20,111 nucleotides of DNA from Myxococcales bacterium (GTDB lineage: Bacteria; Myxococcota; Polyangia; HGW-17; SLPX01). Position 1 is the first letter of the stretch, and every line of letters starts with the position of its first letter. The stretch covers positions 1-20,111 of the forward strand of contig SLPX01000103.1 of NCBI GenBank assembly GCA_007131745.1, in the 5' to 3' direction. The notes below the pieces were generated by a model that did not search any database, had not been told where the DNA came from, and saw only the letters and a program-made list of their open reading frames with translations. Below are positions 3,527-10,196 of the stretch, piece after piece. The translations under genes and the position numbers were made by a program.

Positions 3527-4221
3527 TGAACCTGGATTACCGAAAAAACATAGCCGATGGTCTGCTGCTTCATCCAAGGGTGGAATATCAAAGAGTTTGC
3601 AAGAGAGCAAAAGACCGCACAAGCATAGCAGCCGAGGTGCCCGACTTGGTGCCTTTCGATACAAATGAATACTGGCGCTTTTTGCCGATTTTAGACTGGG
3701 ATCACAAGCTTCCCTCCAAGAACTTCTACCTTCGCATTTATGCTTATTATGACAAGGAATCATATGATTTGGGCGATGCCGACAGGAAAGCGCGGTTGTC
3801 CAGGATCCAAAGACTGGATCGGTTTCCCGAGTTCGACGTGCCTGATTTTTCCGGCATGGTTTCGGACGAGGCCTATGAAATAATTCTTGATTCGAATGGG
3901 AAGAGAAAGAGCAGTCGTTTGACGTCCACATGGAGAAGGGACCTGGATCCCGGCCAGGCTTCATCCGCGGCTGCAATTGTTCGAAAAAGCAAGGAATTCG
4001 CCCAGGTTAACAGCCGTGTCAAGAAAAGACCTGAAAACCTGGGTGACGCGGAAGCAGTTAGTTGGACGCCTCCCTGTGAGAGTGGCCACAGAAACTGGAC
4101 TTTGGATGTCTGGTACCTGGTGGCATATGACGGCATGCATGGTAAGGGACATTCCTTTTTGGTTGATTTGCAAGAGCAAAAAATAGTTGCTGTCAGGGAG
4201 TTTACGGTTCGACCGGATTAG
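3526..4221 (+). CDS. Unrecognised protein, 231 residues
   Basis: I do not recognise this family. The protein is soluble, with no signal peptide or membrane segment. It is rich in Asp, Arg, Tyr and Trp, and two blocks look conserved in character: an aromatic block around residues 45-70 (EYWRFLPILDWDHKLP, then FYLRIYAYYD) and a C-terminal block with SWTPPCESGHRNW. It has only two Cys, too few for a zinc cluster by itself. The ATG at 3526 follows AAGGTG by 5 nt. It sits 60 nt after murA on the same strand and converges on folK with a 29-nt gap that holds no obvious terminator. Confidence 0.75.
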   Translation: MNLDYRKNIADGLLLHPRVEYQRVCKRAKDRTSIAAEVPDLVPFDTNEYWRFLPILDWDHKLPSKNFYLRIYAYYDKESYDLGDADRKARLSRIQRLDRFPEFDVPDFSGMVSDEAYEIILDSNGKRKSSRLTSTWRRDLDPGQASSAAAIVRKSKEFAQVNSRVKKRPENLGDAEAVSWTPPCESGHRNWTLDVWYLVAYDGMHGKGHSFLVDLQEQKIVAVREFTVRPD

Positions 4222-4250: not shown

Positions 4251-4775
4251 TCACATTTCGTCAAGGGGACCTATGCGCACCGCACCTGTTTTTTCAGCCG
4301 CTTCCAGAAGGTCTTTCATTGCAACACCGGTTTTAGGGTGTTTTACAAGAGGCGCCAGTTCGCAAAGTGGTTCCAGAACGAATTGCCGTGTATGCATTCG
4401 CGGATGGGGCAAGGTCAGGAATTCGTGATTCATGACCATGTCCTCGTAAAGTAGCATATCGATGTCGATGACTCGGGGTTCGTTGGGTGTAGACGTGCGC
4501 CGTCTTCCCAGCAAGGTTTCGATATCGAGCAGGTTTTTCATCAAAGTCACGGGATCGGACCGGGTTGATACACCAAGGACCATATTCAGATATGGTGGAC
4601 CGTCTCCTCCCACGGGATTTGTTTCATACACCCAAGACAGATCCGTGACCCCGGTTTTTGGCAGGTTTTCGATGAAGCGCACGGCCTCTCGGAGGCGGTC
4701 GCCCCTGTTTCCCAGATTTGAGCCGAGGGCCAGGAATGCTTTTGAATCCTTACCTTCATCCGTGCAGGATTTCAT
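4251..4775 (-). CDS. folK: 2-amino-4-hydroxy-6-hydroxymethyldihydropteridine pyrophosphokinase
   Basis: FolK transfers pyrophosphate from ATP to 6-hydroxymethyl-7,8-dihydropterin in folate synthesis. The 174-residue protein shows the family marks in order: LGSNLGNR near the N-terminus, VYETNPVG with the product following as PYLN, the arginine-rich ATP loop LGRRR, the metal-binding PRVIDIDMLLY (two Asp of the DxD-type site), and LPHPRMHTRQFVLEPL. Its ATG lies inside the last codons of rng with a 20-nt overlap in a different frame, and no separate ribosome-binding site is visible, so translation is probably coupled to rng. A ten-residue N-terminal extension precedes the usual start of the fold. 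It is complete. Confidence 0.96.
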   Translation of the reverse strand: MKSCTDEGKDSKAFLALGSNLGNRGDRLREAVRFIENLPKTGVTDLSWVYETNPVGGDGPPYLNMVLGVSTRSDPVTLMKNLLDIETLLGRRRTSTPNEPRVIDIDMLLYEDMVMNHEFLTLPHPRMHTRQFVLEPLCELAPLVKHPKTGVAMKDLLEAAEKTGAVRIGPLDEM

Positions 4776-6279
4776 AGTGTTCTACGTGCAGCTTTGGGTT
4801 TGCGTTTATGAAGATGGATTTTTCCAGGCGGTGTTCCAGATCGTCAATCATGTCTTGTTCCGACTGTGTCAGTGTTTCAGCGACAATCGGGTGACAGTTT
4901 ACAATGAGCCGATCGGCCGAGCAGTGAAGCGCTTCTCTTCTTAGTTGTCTCAGGATCTCGTATGAAACAGCGAGCGGAGTTTTCACGGATCCTCTACCCT
5001 CGCAATAACTACATGGTTCCGTAAGGGTTCGAGTCAAACTTTCACGAGTTCTTTTCCTGGTCATTTCCACGAGACCAAGAGCGGATATCGGGCCGAGGTT
5101 GCATCTCGCCCTGTCGCGAGCCAGCCTTTCCTGGAGGGTTCTCCAAACGATGTCCCTGTTTGATTTCTTTTCCATGTCTATGAAATCGATGATGATAATG
5201 CCGCCGATGTTGCGCAGCCGAAGCTGATCCGCGATTTCTCGGCAAGCTTCCAGGTTTGTTTTCGTTATGGTTTCTTCGAGGCTGCGTTTTCCCACGAAAC
5301 GTCCGGTGTTCACATCTATAGCTGTCAGCGCTTCGGTCTGTTCAATTATGAGGTATCCACCGCTTTTGAGCCATACGCGGCGTTGAAGAGCTCTATCTAT
5401 CTGGGGCTCAACCCCGAGTGCGTCAAAGATAGGTTCGGTTTCATCATAGAGTTGGATATTGTCTGTAAACCTCGGCATAAAAGTCGAAACGAACTCCTTG
5501 ATTTTTTCAAATTCCCGCTCGGTGTCTATAATACATGTGTCGGTGTCCAGTGAGAGCATATCCCGCACAGACCTGAGGATGAGGTCAAGGTCCGCGTGCA
5601 GTAGGGCGGGTGCTGAAGATTCTTTTTCCTTTTTCTTGATTTGGGCCCAGAGTTTTGTCAGGAAATCCATATCAGCGGCCAACTTGGCTGGACTCTGTCC
5701 TTCCGCTGCCGTTCTTATTATGAATCCGTCACCGTCTTTTTTCTTCAACGCTTCAGCAAGATCCCTCAATCGCTTTCTCTCCGCTTCGTCAGCGATTCTA
5801 CGCGATATTCCGATGTGCTGGAAAGTCGGCATGTATACAACATTTCTGCCGGGCAGTGAAACGTGGGCTGTAACCCTGGCGCCTTTGGTGCCCAAAGGTT
5901 CTTTTGCCACCTGAACCAGCACATCTTGTCCCTCGTGCAGCAGATCTTCTATTCTTGGTTTGCCGAAAGGATCTTCCATTTCCTCTTCACAAATGGATGC
6001 ACCGTTTGTTTCATCGAGTTCCTCAAAAAACAGAGCCGATTCCGTGGAAGGTGTTACGAGGTCTGCAACATGCAGAAAAGCGGTCTTTTCCGCTCCTATA
6101 TCCACGAAGGCCGCTTGCATGCCCGGTAGAACCCGGATAACTCTGCCTTTGTAAACATTGCCGACGATCCCCAGTTCTTTGGGGCGCTCGATGTGGATTT
6201 CCGTCAATATGTCGTTTTCAAGTAGTGCAACCCTGTGTTCCGGTCCGTCGGTATTTATTATCAGTTTGTTTCCGTTCAT
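4756..6279 (-). CDS. rng: Ribonuclease E/G family endoribonuclease
   Basis: This endoribonuclease processes rRNA and mRNA in the cytoplasm. The 507-residue size is that of RNase G, with no long C-terminal degradosome scaffold. It starts with the family N-terminus (KLIINTDGPEHRVALLE), then an S1 domain with NVYKGRVIRVLPGMQAAFVD, the RNase H-like and catalytic region with two metal-binding Asp (AIDVNTGRF near 322 and IIDFIDM near 365), and the zinc-link cysteines in CSYCEGRGS (423 and 426). I chose ATG 6279 over ATG 6291 because the family start begins there and a TTTGGA sequence precedes it; neither has a strong ribosome-binding site. It is followed by overlapping folK. Its upstream region is shared with the sigma54 unit on the other strand. 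Confidence 0.95.
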   Translation of the reverse strand: MNGNKLIINTDGPEHRVALLENDILTEIHIERPKELGIVGNVYKGRVIRVLPGMQAAFVDIGAEKTAFLHVADLVTPSTESALFFEELDETNGASICEEEMEDPFGKPRIEDLLHEGQDVLVQVAKEPLGTKGARVTAHVSLPGRNVVYMPTFQHIGISRRIADEAERKRLRDLAEALKKKDGDGFIIRTAAEGQSPAKLAADMDFLTKLWAQIKKKEKESSAPALLHADLDLILRSVRDMLSLDTDTCIIDTEREFEKIKEFVSTFMPRFTDNIQLYDETEPIFDALGVEPQIDRALQRRVWLKSGGYLIIEQTEALTAIDVNTGRFVGKRSLEETITKTNLEACREIADQLRLRNIGGIIIIDFIDMEKKSNRDIVWRTLQERLARDRARCNLGPISALGLVEMTRKRTRESLTRTLTEPCSYCEGRGSVKTPLAVSYEILRQLRREALHCSADRLIVNCHPIVAETLTQSEQDMIDDLEHRLEKSIFINANPKLHVEHYEILHG

Positions 6280-6347
6280 GATTCCAAACATTTGTGTGCT
6301 GAAGCAGCTGTCGGATCCGTCGATTCAGCTGAAATGGTTTCCTTTGC

Positions 6348-6365
6348 CATGACAGCAATGTCATG
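6348..6365. promoter_or_regulatory. Perfect 7-4-7 palindrome, candidate enhancer site for the sigma54 promoter
   Basis: CATGACA and TGTCATG flank GCAA, an 18-bp perfect inverted repeat. Its centre lies about 123 bp upstream of the start predicted for the sigma54 promoter at 6453-6469, which is the normal distance for an enhancer-binding protein. It is also about 70 bp upstream of rng on the other strand, so it could act on rng instead. As RNA it would form a hairpin with a GNRA-type loop on the plus strand. Confidence 0.45.
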
Positions 6366-6452
6366 AAAGGTTCGGTTGTGATCCCCTTCCTTGCCAACAC
6401 GAAGAGTAACAATGTGTAATAAATCCGAGTGGTTGGAAGGCCTGTCCGGTTT

Positions 6453-6469
6453 TTGGCATCTTGCTTGCA
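6453..6469 (+). promoter_or_regulatory. Sigma54 (-24/-12) promoter
   Basis: TTGGCATC-TTGC-TTGCA matches the sigma54 consensus TTGGCACG-N4-TTGCA at all positions except two in the less conserved part (C to T and G to C). The essential GG (6455-6456) and GC (6467-6468) have the required 10-bp spacing. Transcription would begin near 6480. It points away from rng into a region with no ORF that ends in a strong terminator. An NtrC-type sigma54 activator is encoded at 8625-10016, but a link between them is not shown. Confidence 0.6.
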
Positions 6470-6603
6470 GGTTCTATTCAACAGGAGGTCGATAGGGAAG
6501 AAAAGAATTGGCCTTTGGTGAGCGTTTGTTAAGAAAGCTGGCATCCCGTTCAGCCTCCTCCTCCTCCCTGACGGTGGGTCAAGGCCCGCTGATAGAAAAT
6601 ACA

Positions 6604-6627
6604 GCCCCGAGAATGTATTCTCGGGGC
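6604..6627. repeat. Perfect 11-bp inverted repeat with 2-bp spacer
   Basis: GCCCCGAGAAT and ATTCTCGGGGC flank GT. As RNA this gives a very stable hairpin. On the minus strand it is followed by CTGTATTTTC, which is only weakly terminator-like; on the plus strand no T-run follows. It lies inside the candidate sigma54-dependent transcript, where it would be an internal structural element. Confidence 0.6.
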
Positions 6628-6731
6628 ACACTTTGAGAGATACTTCAGTTTGTTGAAGTTTACAATATGATTTCACTGATTTTATTGCAGTTTTACTTTT
6701 AACACTTATTTTGCCTTGTGAGTTTCGTTTA

Positions 6732-6800
6732 GTTAAAGTTTTGTTTCGTTAAGTTGCCCTTGAGTTAAGTTAGAGTCGATTTTGTTTGCCTTGAAGTTAG
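6732..6800. repeat. 16-bp periodic GTTAAGTT units
   Basis: GTTAAAGTT begins at 6732, GTTAAGTT at 6748 and 6764, and GTTAG at 6796. All are spaced by multiples of 16 bp, with a diverged unit at 6780 that still shares GCC-TTGA with the 6748 unit. It is a degenerate short tandem array within the candidate non-coding RNA, just before its terminator. Confidence 0.5.
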
Positions 6801-6832
6801 CCTAAGCTTCCACATTGTCGAGGTGTTGGTGT

Positions 6833-6866
6833 AGGCCCTGCAAATAGCAGGGCCTTCCCTTTTTTT
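6833..6866 (+). terminator. Intrinsic terminator, plus strand
   Basis: A perfect 9-bp stem, AGGCCCTGC and GCAGGGCCT with loop AAATA, is followed by TCCC and seven T. On the minus strand no T-run follows, so it acts on plus-strand transcripts. No plus-strand protein gene lies upstream for more than 2.6 kb, so it must end an RNA that starts within the gap. Confidence 0.8.
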
Positions 6867-7016
6867 GGGAAATTTTTCCGGACGGGGACCGTTTTTGGCT
6901 GGGTTTGAAGAGAGGGTGACAGAAATGTCGCACTTTGGCAAGAATACGGAAAAATTCGAGCCTTCTTGAGATCTCCGTGTCGACCGGCTCTAATGTTCAC
7001 TGTCATAAACAAACAT

Positions 7017-7245
7017 GCTCGCCCAATCTCGAATCGTGAGTGGATGCCGAGGCCATGTTTTCGCAGGCTCCGGAAACGCCGGACGTCGCCGTTTGAAGCT
7101 TACCCTTCGGGTAGCATCGTCGGCGACTCGGTCGAATCCCTTCAGCCCTTCGGGCAGCGGTCTTCAAACGCCGGCTTTTTCCGAACCTGCTTCAACTTTA
7201 GCCTCGGCACAACACCTACGATCATTCGCCGTACATAGAGCGAGC
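7017..7245. repeat. 230-bp nested foldback element (structured RNA or MITE-like repeat)
   Basis: Successive helices nest from outside to inside: GCTCGC 7017-7022 with 7240-7245; CGAAT 7030-7034 with 7224-7228 and CGT 7035-7037 with 7218-7220; GCCGAGGC 7046-7053 with 7201-7208; GCAGG 7063-7067 with 7186-7190, extended by TC-GGAAA; and CGTTTGAAG 7090-7098 with 7162-7170. At the tip are two small hairpins with the same CCCTTCGGG core (7103-7111 and 7146-7154). GTCGCCG 7085-7091 can also pair with CGGCGAC 7121-7127, giving an alternative fold. The strand is unclear; on the minus strand a T-rich stretch follows the outer stem. No named family was recognised. Confidence 0.6.
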
Positions 7246-7248
7246 CGC

Positions 7249-7283
7249 AAAAAAAAGGCAGATGGACAACAAGCCGACATCTG
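7249..7283 (-). terminator. Intrinsic terminator of the sigma54 activator/cNMP-binding operon
   Basis: On the minus strand CAGATG (7283-7278) and CATCTG (7264-7259) enclose a 13-nt loop and are followed by CC and eight T (7256-7249). It begins 15 nt after the stop of the gene at 7298-8617 and reads in that gene's direction. Confidence 0.7.
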
Positions 7284-7297
7284 AGTTGCTTAAGATT

Positions 7298-8617
7298 TTA
7301 GATGAGAATCATTTCGTCGGAGATCTCAATGCCGTCGTCATCTGAAAGAACGGCTCGTGTATCATGGAGTCTTTCTTCCGAAAGGTTTTCAAAGAAAGCT
7401 TTTATCTCCGGCAGAGCGTCAACGAGTCGCACGAAATAAACCCGGTCCAGAAACAGTATAGTGGATCGTCGGACGGCTTTCACCGATGCGGTGGCCGGGA
7501 AACCTTTGATCAAGGAAATCTCGCCGAAAACGTCTCCGGCCTTTAGAGTGGCCAACAAGATCTGGCCGCCTTCGTGATCCTTTGTAATCTCAACTTCTCC
7601 TGAAAGAACAACATAGAGCCCCCGGCCTTCATCCCCTTCGCGGATGATTACAGTTTCGGGAGGAACCTCGTGCCCGGAAAACCTGCGCAACAGGTCAAGA
7701 CGTTGTTTCTTGGAAAAAGGAGCGAAGAGCGGTGACGTGGCCATTAGATTGTTCAAGAGACGGTCGCGGGTAAAATGATCGAGTGCCTGGGCTACGCTCT
7801 GGAGATTCGACGCCATAGCAGAAAGACCGGCGCTGTCGATTTCGAGCAGGTCTGCATCGCCGGCTGACATTACGGATGCGGTTCTGGGAGATGCATGGAT
7901 GAGCGCCATTTCTCCGAAAAGAGCGTTTTCTCCCAAGGTGGCGAGAGTTTTTTCATGGCCGTGTCTGTCGGCGTGAAACACGCGCACTTGCCCCATGGCC
8001 AGGAAAAAGAAAGATCGTCCCATTTCACCCTCCCGGATTATGGCCGCCCCGTCATCCACCCGGATCGCTTTGATCGATGTGCAAAGACGAATGAATGTAT
8101 CATGGGGGAGTTCGCTCAGGAGAGGAATCTTGTGAAGGGTCGATGGATATTCGGTAACCGATTCCAGGTTTGCCGCCGCTCTGGCAGCTCCCGTGATAAT
8201 GTCCTGGGGAGCGATCTCGGCTTCAAGATCCGGTGCTTTTATTTCAGTATCGGGATGTTCCGGAGAAAGCCGCTGACCCTTGGATGAGGTCTTTGTCGAT
8301 GAAGAAGAGTAGTATTGCGCGAGCATCTGGAGCAATGGTTCGATGTCGTGGCCGTGTTCTTGCAGAATCTTAATTGCCACGAGGGAAACAAGGGGATGTC
8401 CGGATTTGATCCCGTAGATTACGACCGCTTTGTACACTTCCGCTGCAATATCTTTTGATCCTGTTTTTGAAACAAGATCTGCAATTTTCAGCCTGTTTTC
8501 GATGTCCTGCGGCGAAGCGTCCACAAGTCTCCAAAAGATTTTTAGTGCCGTTGCCGTATCCCCGGCGGTTTCGGCTTTTCGTCCGGCTTCTTTTAGTTTT
8601 TCGATGGTGATTTTCAT
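7298..8617 (-). CDS. Protein with N-terminal helical repeats and two cyclic-nucleotide-binding domains
   Basis: The 439-residue cytoplasmic protein begins with about 100 residues of TPR-like helical repeat (AGRKAETAGDTATALKIFWR) and a Ser/Thr-rich linker. Two CNB (CRP/PKA-type) domains follow, at about 164-275 and 297-410. The first has a full phosphate-binding cassette with FGEMAL and Arg245 in SPRTASV. The second has FGEISL but Ala375 in PATASV where the phosphate-binding Arg is expected, so it may not bind cyclic nucleotide in the usual way. There is no DNA-binding or kinase domain. It starts 7 nt after the sigma54 activator's stop, so the two are co-transcribed and may act in one signalling route. 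The ligand is unknown. Confidence 0.9.
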   Translation of the reverse strand: MKITIEKLKEAGRKAETAGDTATALKIFWRLVDASPQDIENRLKIADLVSKTGSKDIAAEVYKAVVIYGIKSGHPLVSLVAIKILQEHGHDIEPLLQMLAQYYSSSSTKTSSKGQRLSPEHPDTEIKAPDLEAEIAPQDIITGAARAAANLESVTEYPSTLHKIPLLSELPHDTFIRLCTSIKAIRVDDGAAIIREGEMGRSFFFLAMGQVRVFHADRHGHEKTLATLGENALFGEMALIHASPRTASVMSAGDADLLEIDSAGLSAMASNLQSVAQALDHFTRDRLLNNLMATSPLFAPFSKKQRLDLLRRFSGHEVPPETVIIREGDEGRGLYVVLSGEVEITKDHEGGQILLATLKAGDVFGEISLIKGFPATASVKAVRRSTILFLDRVYFVRLVDALPEIKAFFENLSEERLHDTRAVLSDDDGIEISDEMILI

Positions 8618-8624
8618 TGGCTTT

Positions 8625-10016
8625 TCATGATTCCTTTTTGATGTTGTAGGATTTGATTTTCTTATGCAAATTCGTTCTTTCGATTCCGAGTTTTCTGGCG
8701 GCCTTGGAAATATTCCAATCGCATTCTTCGAGATTCAAAAGGATGAAAGCCTTTTCCATCCGGTCTCTGAATTCCCGAAGCGTATCAGTTGCATATTGCC
8801 TCAGATCGATCCTGGCTCGTGAGGTCGATTCCATGGAATCCGGAAGATCGGACAGGGTGATTCGGTCCCCGGATAGAATGACGAGACGTTCGATTAGGTT
8901 TTTTAATTCTCTTACGTTTCCCGGCCATGTGTGGCGTTTTAGAGCGTCGAGAACCTCGGGTTCGATCTCTTTCTTTTTAAACCCGTTTTCATTGCAGAAC
9001 TCGGAAATGAAGCTTTGGACCAACAATGGTAAGTCTTCAATCCGTTCACGCAGGGTAGGGGTGTGTATGGGAATGACATTTAGGCGGAAGAAGAGATCTT
9101 CTCTGAAAACGCCCTGTGCAACCAGCTTGTTCAGATCCCGGTTTGTTGCGGCCAGGACGCGGACATCGACATGTATGGCTTGTTCCGCACCCACCCTGAC
9201 CATTTCACCGGATTGAAGAACTCTCAGCAGTTTTGCCTGTGCCGAAAGGCTCATGTCACCAACTTCGTCGAGGAAGATGGTTCCGTCGGCCGCGGCTTCG
9301 AAGAGCCCTTTTTTCTTTCCGACCGCGCCGGTAAAAGAGCCTTTTTCGTGACCGAACAATTCGCTTTCAATCAGATCAGCAGGAATGGCGGCGCAGTTGA
9401 CTTTGATAAAAGGCTTATCTCTGAGTTGGCTCTGGATGTGTATGGCCCGTGCGACTAATTCTTTGCCCGTCCCACTTTCTCCCGTGATCAGAATTCGACC
9501 CTTGGTGGGAGCTACTTTTTCTATTTGTTCAAAGAGTTTCAGCATGGCCGGGCCGGCGCCGACCATTTTGTATCGATCGCGTTGCTGGTTTTTCAGGTTT
9601 GCAATTTCTAGTTCTATCCGCCGGCGCTCAAGAGCGTTGCGCACCGAAACCAGAACGCGATGTCGGTCCAAGGGCTTTTCGAAAAAATCGAAAGCGCCCA
9701 GTTTTGTAGCTGAAACGGCATCAGATACCGAGGCATGTCCGGAAATCATGATGACCGGAATTCCGGATAATTTACCTTCTCCGGTCTTTAGTTTTTCAAG
9801 CGCGGTTACGCCGTCCATTCCAGGAAGCTTTATATCCATCAGCAAACAGTCGATGGTTTCCGAGGCAATGATTTGCATGGCCGCCTCGGCCGATTCCGCG
9901 GTTTTCACTTCATAGCCTTCAGCTTCCAAAACCATCGCAAGGGTGCGGCGGATGTTTTTTTCATCATCCACAACGAGAACCGTGAGTTCCGGATTTTGGG
10001 AGTTGTGTTTGTTCAT
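8625..10016 (-). CDS. NtrC-family sigma54-dependent response regulator
   Basis: The 463-residue protein has three domains. The receiver (about 11-130) has VVDDE, phospho-acceptor D61, ISGHA and K114. The AAA+ domain (about 150-385) has Walker A GESGTGKE (179-186), the sigma54-contact loop as GSFTGA (226-231) with the common Ala-to-Ser change, and Walker B GTIFLDEVGD. The C-terminal Fis-type helix-turn-helix (about 430-459) contains NISKAARKLGIERTNLHKKI. It opens sigma54 promoters by ATP hydrolysis after phosphorylation. I chose ATG 10016 rather than ATG 10109, because the domain starts there and a promoter lies between them. No kinase gene is adjacent. The cNMP-binding gene follows after 7 nt. 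Confidence 0.96.
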   Translation of the reverse strand: MNKHNSQNPELTVLVVDDEKNIRRTLAMVLEAEGYEVKTAESAEAAMQIIASETIDCLLMDIKLPGMDGVTALEKLKTGEGKLSGIPVIMISGHASVSDAVSATKLGAFDFFEKPLDRHRVLVSVRNALERRRIELEIANLKNQQRDRYKMVGAGPAMLKLFEQIEKVAPTKGRILITGESGTGKELVARAIHIQSQLRDKPFIKVNCAAIPADLIESELFGHEKGSFTGAVGKKKGLFEAAADGTIFLDEVGDMSLSAQAKLLRVLQSGEMVRVGAEQAIHVDVRVLAATNRDLNKLVAQGVFREDLFFRLNVIPIHTPTLRERIEDLPLLVQSFISEFCNENGFKKKEIEPEVLDALKRHTWPGNVRELKNLIERLVILSGDRITLSDLPDSMESTSRARIDLRQYATDTLREFRDRMEKAFILLNLEECDWNISKAARKLGIERTNLHKKIKSYNIKKES

Positions 10017-10021
10017 GGCGG

Positions 10022-10073
10022 CCGGGTTTTTTTGTTTACCCGGAGTATAGGGGGTTTGTCCGGGTATAGGCAA
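10022..10073 (-). promoter_or_regulatory. Sigma70 promoter of the sigma54-activator operon with repeated CCGGGT arms
   Basis: On the minus strand TTGCCT (10073-10068) and TATACT (10049-10044) are 18 bp apart, giving a leader of about 20 nt before ATG 10016. Three alternating copies of one hexamer overlap the promoter and leader: TCCGGGT (10059-10065), ACCCGGA (10038-10044) and CCGGGT (10022-10027), about 21 bp apart. This forms an inverted repeat around the -10 box and a second one just before the start codon. It looks like an operator or a leader hairpin that could mask translation. No good ribosome-binding site is visible before the ATG. Confidence 0.5.
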
Positions 10074-10154
10074 AGGAAAAAAACCTTGACCCCGATTCCC
10101 TTTGTCCACTGTTTTTTGTCATGAAAAACTCTTGTTAGGATCTGTGAGAAAAGC

Positions 10155-10196
10155 GTCAAGGCCTGCTTGACACCTGCCGAAAGCGAAATTTATACT
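10155..10196 (+). promoter_or_regulatory. Strong sigma70 promoter of the DUF507-mtnA operon with overlapping operator-like palindrome
   Basis: A perfect TTGACA (10167-10172) and TATACT (10191-10196) are 18 bp apart, about 30 nt before the ATG at 10232. A perfect inverted repeat, GTCAAG (10155-10160) and CTTGAC (10166-10171) with 5-bp spacer, overlaps the -35 box, a position where a bound protein would block RNA polymerase. Confidence 0.65.

Follow-up and report, generated by a model that had tools for sequence, protein, structure and literature searches.

The gap between the RNase E/G gene rng and an operon that encodes a sigma54 activator and a cNMP-binding protein, in a contig from a Myxococcales bacterium, has, as judged from its sequence, about an even chance of being an independent plus-strand gene for a sigma54-type non-coding RNA under the control of that activator. 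The window is the whole stretch of DNA analysed, 20,111 nt in length, and all positions refer to it. A sequence-only reading had proposed a regulated non-coding RNA of up to 387 nt at this place; a plus-strand, non-coding, sigma54-type unit is still the best reading of the gap, whereas the palindrome that had been cast as its enhancer has no statistical support in that role. In favour of an independent gene are the top promoter match of the window, a rare terminator, the weak coding signal of the gap, the operon's own terminator and the nearby activator. Against it stand loose pattern counts without excess, a T run set 4 nt off its stem, a palindrome that is not significant by itself and, ahead of the terminator, five weak sigma70-like sites on the plus strand (each 8/12); by analogy with Pxr (108 nt), 387 nt would also be long for such a small RNA (sRNA).

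The gap (6292–7297, 1006 bp) lies between rng and the minus-strand activator–cNMP pair, in the following setting:

4756–6291, minus strand: rng, a gene of the RNase E/G family (Pfam PF10150; NCBIfam TIGR00757 above cut-off)
7249–7283, minus strand: terminator of the activator–cNMP operon, read from the sequence (stem 7259–7264/7278–7283, T8 at 7256–7249)
7298–8617, minus strand: cNMP-binding protein gene (PF00027 in two stretches)
8625–10016, minus strand: gene for a response-regulator sigma54 activator, the candidate controller of the promoter (PF00072, PF00158, PF02954)

The activator ORF spans 8625–10109; relatives begin near M32 in an alignment of 13 proteins, which makes a start at 10016 likelier than one at 10109. 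The protein keeps a GSFTGA motif. Across the 13 aligned activator proteins GAFTGA and GSFTGA are the sole variants at this motif, and GSFTGA is counted as a functional variant in the relevant part of a study of D. vulgaris (PMC4641369). Because this likely sigma54 activator gene sits a single gene away from the sigma54-type non-coding unit, the description of the unit as an 'orphan' is doubtful. The unit lies next to rng, and its link to RNase E/G is one of position only.

The plus-strand terminator needs a plus-strand start inside the gap, because the closest plus-strand gene upstream finishes at 4221, with two genes of the minus strand in between. As the facing activator–cNMP operon has a terminator of its own, a distinct plus-strand unit seems to occupy the gap, an argument that is independent of the sigma54 match. 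The predicted unit comprises:

6453–6469, plus strand: sigma54-type −24/−12 promoter TTGGCATCTTGCTTGCA, the best in the window by a weighted matrix
6480–6866, plus strand: predicted non-coding transcript of up to 387 nt, from promoter to terminator (fold z −2.87)
6833–6866, plus strand: intrinsic terminator with a 9-bp stem, a 4-nt gap and T7 (an equal in 0 of 2000 shuffles)

The terminator is present as it had been described, with stem 6833–6841/6847–6855, then TCCC and then seven T (6860–6866). The T run, which starts 4 nt past the stem and not directly after it, fits plus-strand transcription only. A perfect 9-bp stem followed by a T run arose in none of 2000 shuffles of the gap on either strand, by a criterion set after the site had been seen; a loose terminator scan of 5400–7800 returned 4 sites against a shuffle mean of 3.2, which is no excess.

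The −24/−12 element likewise has the correct spacing that had been claimed for it, with GG at 6455–6456, ten bases, and GC at 6467–6468. Taken alone, GG-N10-GC is uninformative (149 in the window, 167 expected), and TGGCACRN4TTGCW with up to two mismatches gives 4 matches in the window, with 5 expected. By a weighted matrix with weights that were not fitted, TTGGCATCTTGCTTGCA scores 15.6, the window maximum on both strands, and it is the only intergenic site among the top 15 sigma54-like sites of the window. Dinucleotide shuffles of the 1006-bp gap reached this score in 8 of 2000 cases on the plus strand and in 16 of 2000 on either strand. TTGGCATCTTGCTTGCA shows two departures from the consensus TGGCACG-N4-TTGC(T/A), and mutationally studied M. 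xanthus promoters deviate equally, among them nla28 with TGGAGCG-N4-CTGCT, in the part of the source that lists them (PMC9765219). By its −24/−12 elements and their spacing, we denote TTGGCATCTTGCTTGCA a sigma54-type promoter, with sigma54 dependence as a prediction. When the regions upstream of 77 distant rng genes were scanned (from 80 loci, those below 200 bp being dropped), a sigma54-like site above 12 bits appeared in a single one (L020, 12.4 bits, versus 15.6 here), and it was set aside as lying 9 bp before an 834-aa ORF.

These results bear on two other readings of the gap. If it is not transcribed, the motifs are coincidental and the hairpins are features of DNA or of decaying sequence; the loose pattern counts, which are at chance, agree with this, and we consider it quite unlikely because the highest-scoring promoter match is joined by a rare terminator, in the right order and on the right strand. 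Alternatively, the terminator is real and ends a shorter RNA (about 120–190 nt) with a sigma70 start in the A+T-rich tract 6637–6739, the sigma54 match being a coincidence. The tract has an A+T fraction of 0.66 and three sigma70-like sites (6637–6666, 6644–6671 and 6711–6739, each 8/12). All three are weak, however, the tract is T/G-skewed on one strand, unlike a plain promoter island, and the sigma54 site outscores every other one in the window; such a shorter RNA is in our view unlikely.

The statement that no conventional ORF lies between promoter and terminator holds, in the ordinary meaning of the term, for the plus strand, where the longest ORF inside 6480–6866 (42 aa, 6508–6636) has a TTG start and lacks a Shine-Dalgarno sequence. 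Codon scores are 0.03 to 0.21 for 14 genes of the window and −0.23 to 0.01 for nine ORFs of the gap; one 117-nt window in the frame of the 42-aa ORF reaches 0.11, and two minus-strand windows elsewhere in the gap, outside 6480–6866, reach 0.14–0.17. On the minus strand, ORF 6218–6676 contains an internal ATG (6544), preceded at 9 nt by GGAGG, that opens a 108-aa frame overlapping the start of rng; a Pfam search with this frame, the one frame of the gap tested, finds nothing. It is very unlikely that the RNA is the mRNA of a small protein encoded by the 42-aa plus frame or by the 108-aa minus frame. The GGAGG fits such a protein, as does the codon score of the 42-aa frame (0.014), which is near that of the lowest gene (0.029); set against this, the minus frame scores about −0.11, overlaps rng in a different reading frame and matches no Pfam family, and the plus frame has the defects already named. 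Small proteins encoded in the gap are thus disfavoured by codon usage. Searches for tRNA and tmRNA genes found none.

Ahead of the promoter lies an exact inverted repeat:

6348–6365, no strand assigned: 7-4-7 palindrome CATGACA-GCAA-TGTCATG, a possible activator site or rng operator (exact match)

The palindrome is exact, and its centre lies about 123 bp upstream of the start predicted at 6480, as had been observed, a distance apt for an enhancer; its role as an enhancer site is without statistical support, since 162 of 2000 gap shuffles hold a 7-4-7 palindrome. With a spacer of 2–8, the figure is 717 of 2000. The same palindrome, 57–74 bp away from the start codon of rng, might also be an rng operator. 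CATGACA occurs 4 times in the window (2.1 expected), and this arm recurs at 10117–10123, upstream of the activator. There, the longer word TGTCATGAAA (10117–10131), some 100 bp ahead of the probable activator start, is shared with the flank of the palindrome; a word as long was shared in 65 of 5000 shuffles and in 4 of 197 window tiles, among which the activator's own tiles may be included. The recurrence of TGTCATGAAA and CATGACA is a weak hint, suggestive only, of autoregulation of the activator. Separately, a strong plus-strand sigma70-like promoter (11/12) at 10167–10196 precedes a DUF507 gene. Beyond the terminator, TGACAGAAATGTCG (6917–6930) has one mismatch against the core of the 6348–6365 palindrome, and none of the window's top 15 sigma54-like sites lies near this near-copy for it to serve.

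The predicted RNA contains the following elements:

6554–6568, plus strand: CCTCCTCCTCCTCCC, in which 6554–6559 pairs with 6483–6488 and 6560–6567 is predicted to be single-stranded
6604–6627, no strand assigned: 10-bp hairpin in the predicted RNA, terminator-like when read on the minus strand
6721–6752, plus strand: U-rich 16-nt tandem repeat AGTTTCGTTTAGTTAA (2.0 copies, 87% matches)

The region 6480–6866 folds at −117.1 kcal/mol on the plus strand (z −2.87, 0 of 100 shuffles as good) and more weakly, at −102.2, on the minus strand; the 120-nt window 6572–6691, around hairpin 6604–6627, has a fold z of −4.52 on the plus strand and −3.57 on the minus strand. With a signal present on both strands, fold alone does not fix the strand. 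RNase E autoregulates through its leader, and the structured part of the gap might likewise be transcribed from the minus strand, as a long, hairpin-bearing leader of rng that has the palindrome 57–74 bp before the rng start as its operator. The terminator-like form of the hairpin on that strand (6627–6604), the minus-strand fold z of −3.57 and two weak minus-strand sigma70-like sites (6844–6814 and 6736–6708, 8/12) are consistent with such a leader. It would leave the plus-strand terminator and the sigma54 site unexplained, however, and the plus strand folds better over 6480–6866, so that we hold a minus-strand leader to be decidedly unlikely.

In the predicted plus-strand fold, AGGAGG (6483–6488) pairs with CCTCCT (6554–6559), and the adjoining CCUCCUCC (6560–6567), with a predicted unpaired probability of 0.79–0.93, is the one C-rich run of its type in 6480–6866. 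The T/G-rich tract 6640–6830 is unstructured and holds the 16-nt tandem repeat, of which a degenerate third AGTTTCGTTTAGTTAA copy can be made out by eye at 6753–6768; the strand skew of the tract is reached by 3 of 3984 window positions, all inside the tract. No Rfam family matches in the window, and three sub-threshold hits fall in the gap (E 1.7–2.5).

An independent plus-strand gene, our preferred reading, would work as follows. Sigma54 RNA polymerase would start near 6480 once an enhancer-binding protein, most likely the response regulator of 8625–10016, is active, and transcription would stop at the terminator ending at 6866; we infer both the transcription of the unit and the action of this activator on its promoter. 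The RNA would probably act in trans, in the manner of Pxr or Dv_sRNA2, as its 5′ part is predicted to hold CCUCCUCC single-stranded between two hairpins, from where it could cover the Shine-Dalgarno sequences of target mRNAs. We propose anti-Shine-Dalgarno pairing as the mode of action only tentatively. Among the start regions of the window, with starts assumed, those of EPSP synthase (−12.7 kcal/mol) and an epimerase (−11.7 kcal/mol) are the most complementary; because any GGAGG would match, we claim no target.

By the precedents of Pxr and D. vulgaris, the placing of an sRNA next to its sigma54 activator is a known arrangement. Pxr of M. xanthus adjoins the sigma54 response-regulator gene nla19/pxrR (PxrR = Nla19, SpdR) and, in the portions of the reports drawn on here, appears to be transcribed by sigma54 (PMC5568312, PMC5684412, PMC10217877); it is described as 108 nt long with three stem-loops, its gene being flanked by nla19 and by a gene for a predicted NADH dehydrogenase (PMC5568312). 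The present unit resembles Pxr, as described there, in that a putative non-coding RNA of a myxobacterium has a sigma54 promoter predicted for it and a sigma54 response-regulator gene nearby. In contrast to Pxr, its neighbours are rng and the cNMP-domain gene, its length is up to 387 nt rather than 108 nt, and the cNMP gene stands between the RNA and its candidate regulator gene, which is directed towards the RNA. In D. vulgaris, the response regulators DVU0679 (with Dv_sRNA2) and DVU0653 are each listed with a non-coding RNA downstream of their own gene, and the reconstructed sigma54 regulome is summarized as including four non-coding RNAs (PMC4641369, PMC3333781); the likeness, a response-regulator activator with a non-coding RNA near it, is one of description and concerns a different bacterium. 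The sigma54-dependent sRNA GlmY of gammaproteobacteria, with QseF, is similar in that an sRNA stands under a response-regulator activator, as far as that system is described in outline; the present unit differs in that no Rfam family matches it. The alpha-r14 sRNAs, as presented for NfeR1, share with it an anti-Shine-Dalgarno motif, CCUCCUCC(C), predicted to be single-stranded between stems (PMC10746234). In contrast to the single run here, however, alpha-r14 members are described as having three hairpins, each with an unpaired CCUCCUCCC, and NfeR1 as having a sigma70 promoter repressed by NtrC, where the promoter here is of the sigma54 type (PMC10746234). The locus is thus probably a further example of an sRNA beside a sigma54 response regulator, and we file it neither as Pxr nor as alpha-r14.

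Comparison with relatives bears on the candidate controller. The nearest Rng proteins are 83% and 81% identical and the next 62% (best 120 listed), and the source names among these 120 matches include Polyangia, Polyangiaceae, Myxococcales, Deltaproteobacteria and Pseudomonadota, so that the host looks Myxococcota-like. Equal contig size served as a proxy for a shared contig, compared by eye over 120 listed rows for each gene, so that the counts are lower bounds; the proxy can mislead, as in a coincidence at 2117 nt, a length too short for both genes. Among the matches listed, relatives of rng, the cNMP gene and the activator gene all occur on contigs of 8729 nt, and those of rng and the activator gene at 65876. 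The cNMP and activator genes coincide at least at 21080, 61836, 84358 and 94826, and rng and the cNMP gene at least at 42629, 21012, 147630, 34297, 21527 and 5994. Conservation of the neighbourhood is therefore probable, and with it the activator becomes the natural candidate for the controller. The matches listed for the activator include a 100% identical protein with a longest contig of 86,124 nt, those listed for Rng showing 20,111 nt, and a longer assembly of the activator-bearing organism or a close strain may exist.

More distant loci, from other lineages, were collected by a scan of genome contigs with Rng, which retained 80 of the 162 relatives; none of them exceeds 54% identity. In a tree built from 200 Rng sequences, the clade that includes the window has 120 members (support 0.895), and none of the 80 fetched loci belongs to it. 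Apart from rng, no gene of the window has a match above 100 bits in these 80 loci; a looser search found response-regulator or activator-type matches in six and the cNMP gene in none. A search at 1e-30 with the cNMP protein found nothing in the genomes that carry 44 of the 80 loci, and 39 genomes of one phylum gave three partial matches (32–36%). In 60 relatives of genome G001, rng identity is likewise at most 54%. Viral contigs yielded 23 rng loci (45–46% identical), of no use for comparison, and no match to the cNMP gene.

Pxr, a sigma54-type sRNA, gates multicellular development in M. xanthus; no other myxobacterial sRNA is named in the literature surveyed at the level of titles and abstract openings. 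M. xanthus is described, in the relevant portion of one report, as being without an hfq homolog (PMC5684412). If the present reading is true, a second activator-linked sRNA, beside RNase E/G in a Myxococcota-like lineage, would suggest that regulator–sRNA pairs are more widespread in Myxococcota, and the locus would be a defined place to ask how Myxococcota run sRNA regulation. As a speculative extension, which we regard as decidedly improbable, the locus would be a conserved Myxococcota module, with the sRNA set among the genes of its own controllers: the response-regulator sigma54 activator, a protein that senses cNMP, and RNase E/G. In such a module, CCUCCUCC would act as a broad translation brake and the U-rich 16-nt repeat tract as a dock for RNase E/G or another protein, with synthesis and destruction of the sRNA encoded side by side.

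Just past the terminator of the activator–cNMP operon, the gap holds a further structure at 7040–7215, a 176-nt rod-like fold with two CCCTTCGGG apical hairpins and without an Rfam match. It is far stronger (z −8.14 on the minus strand, −5.20 on the plus strand) than the fold of 6480–6866 and, being strong on both strands, may be a palindromic DNA element of the MITE or REP type.
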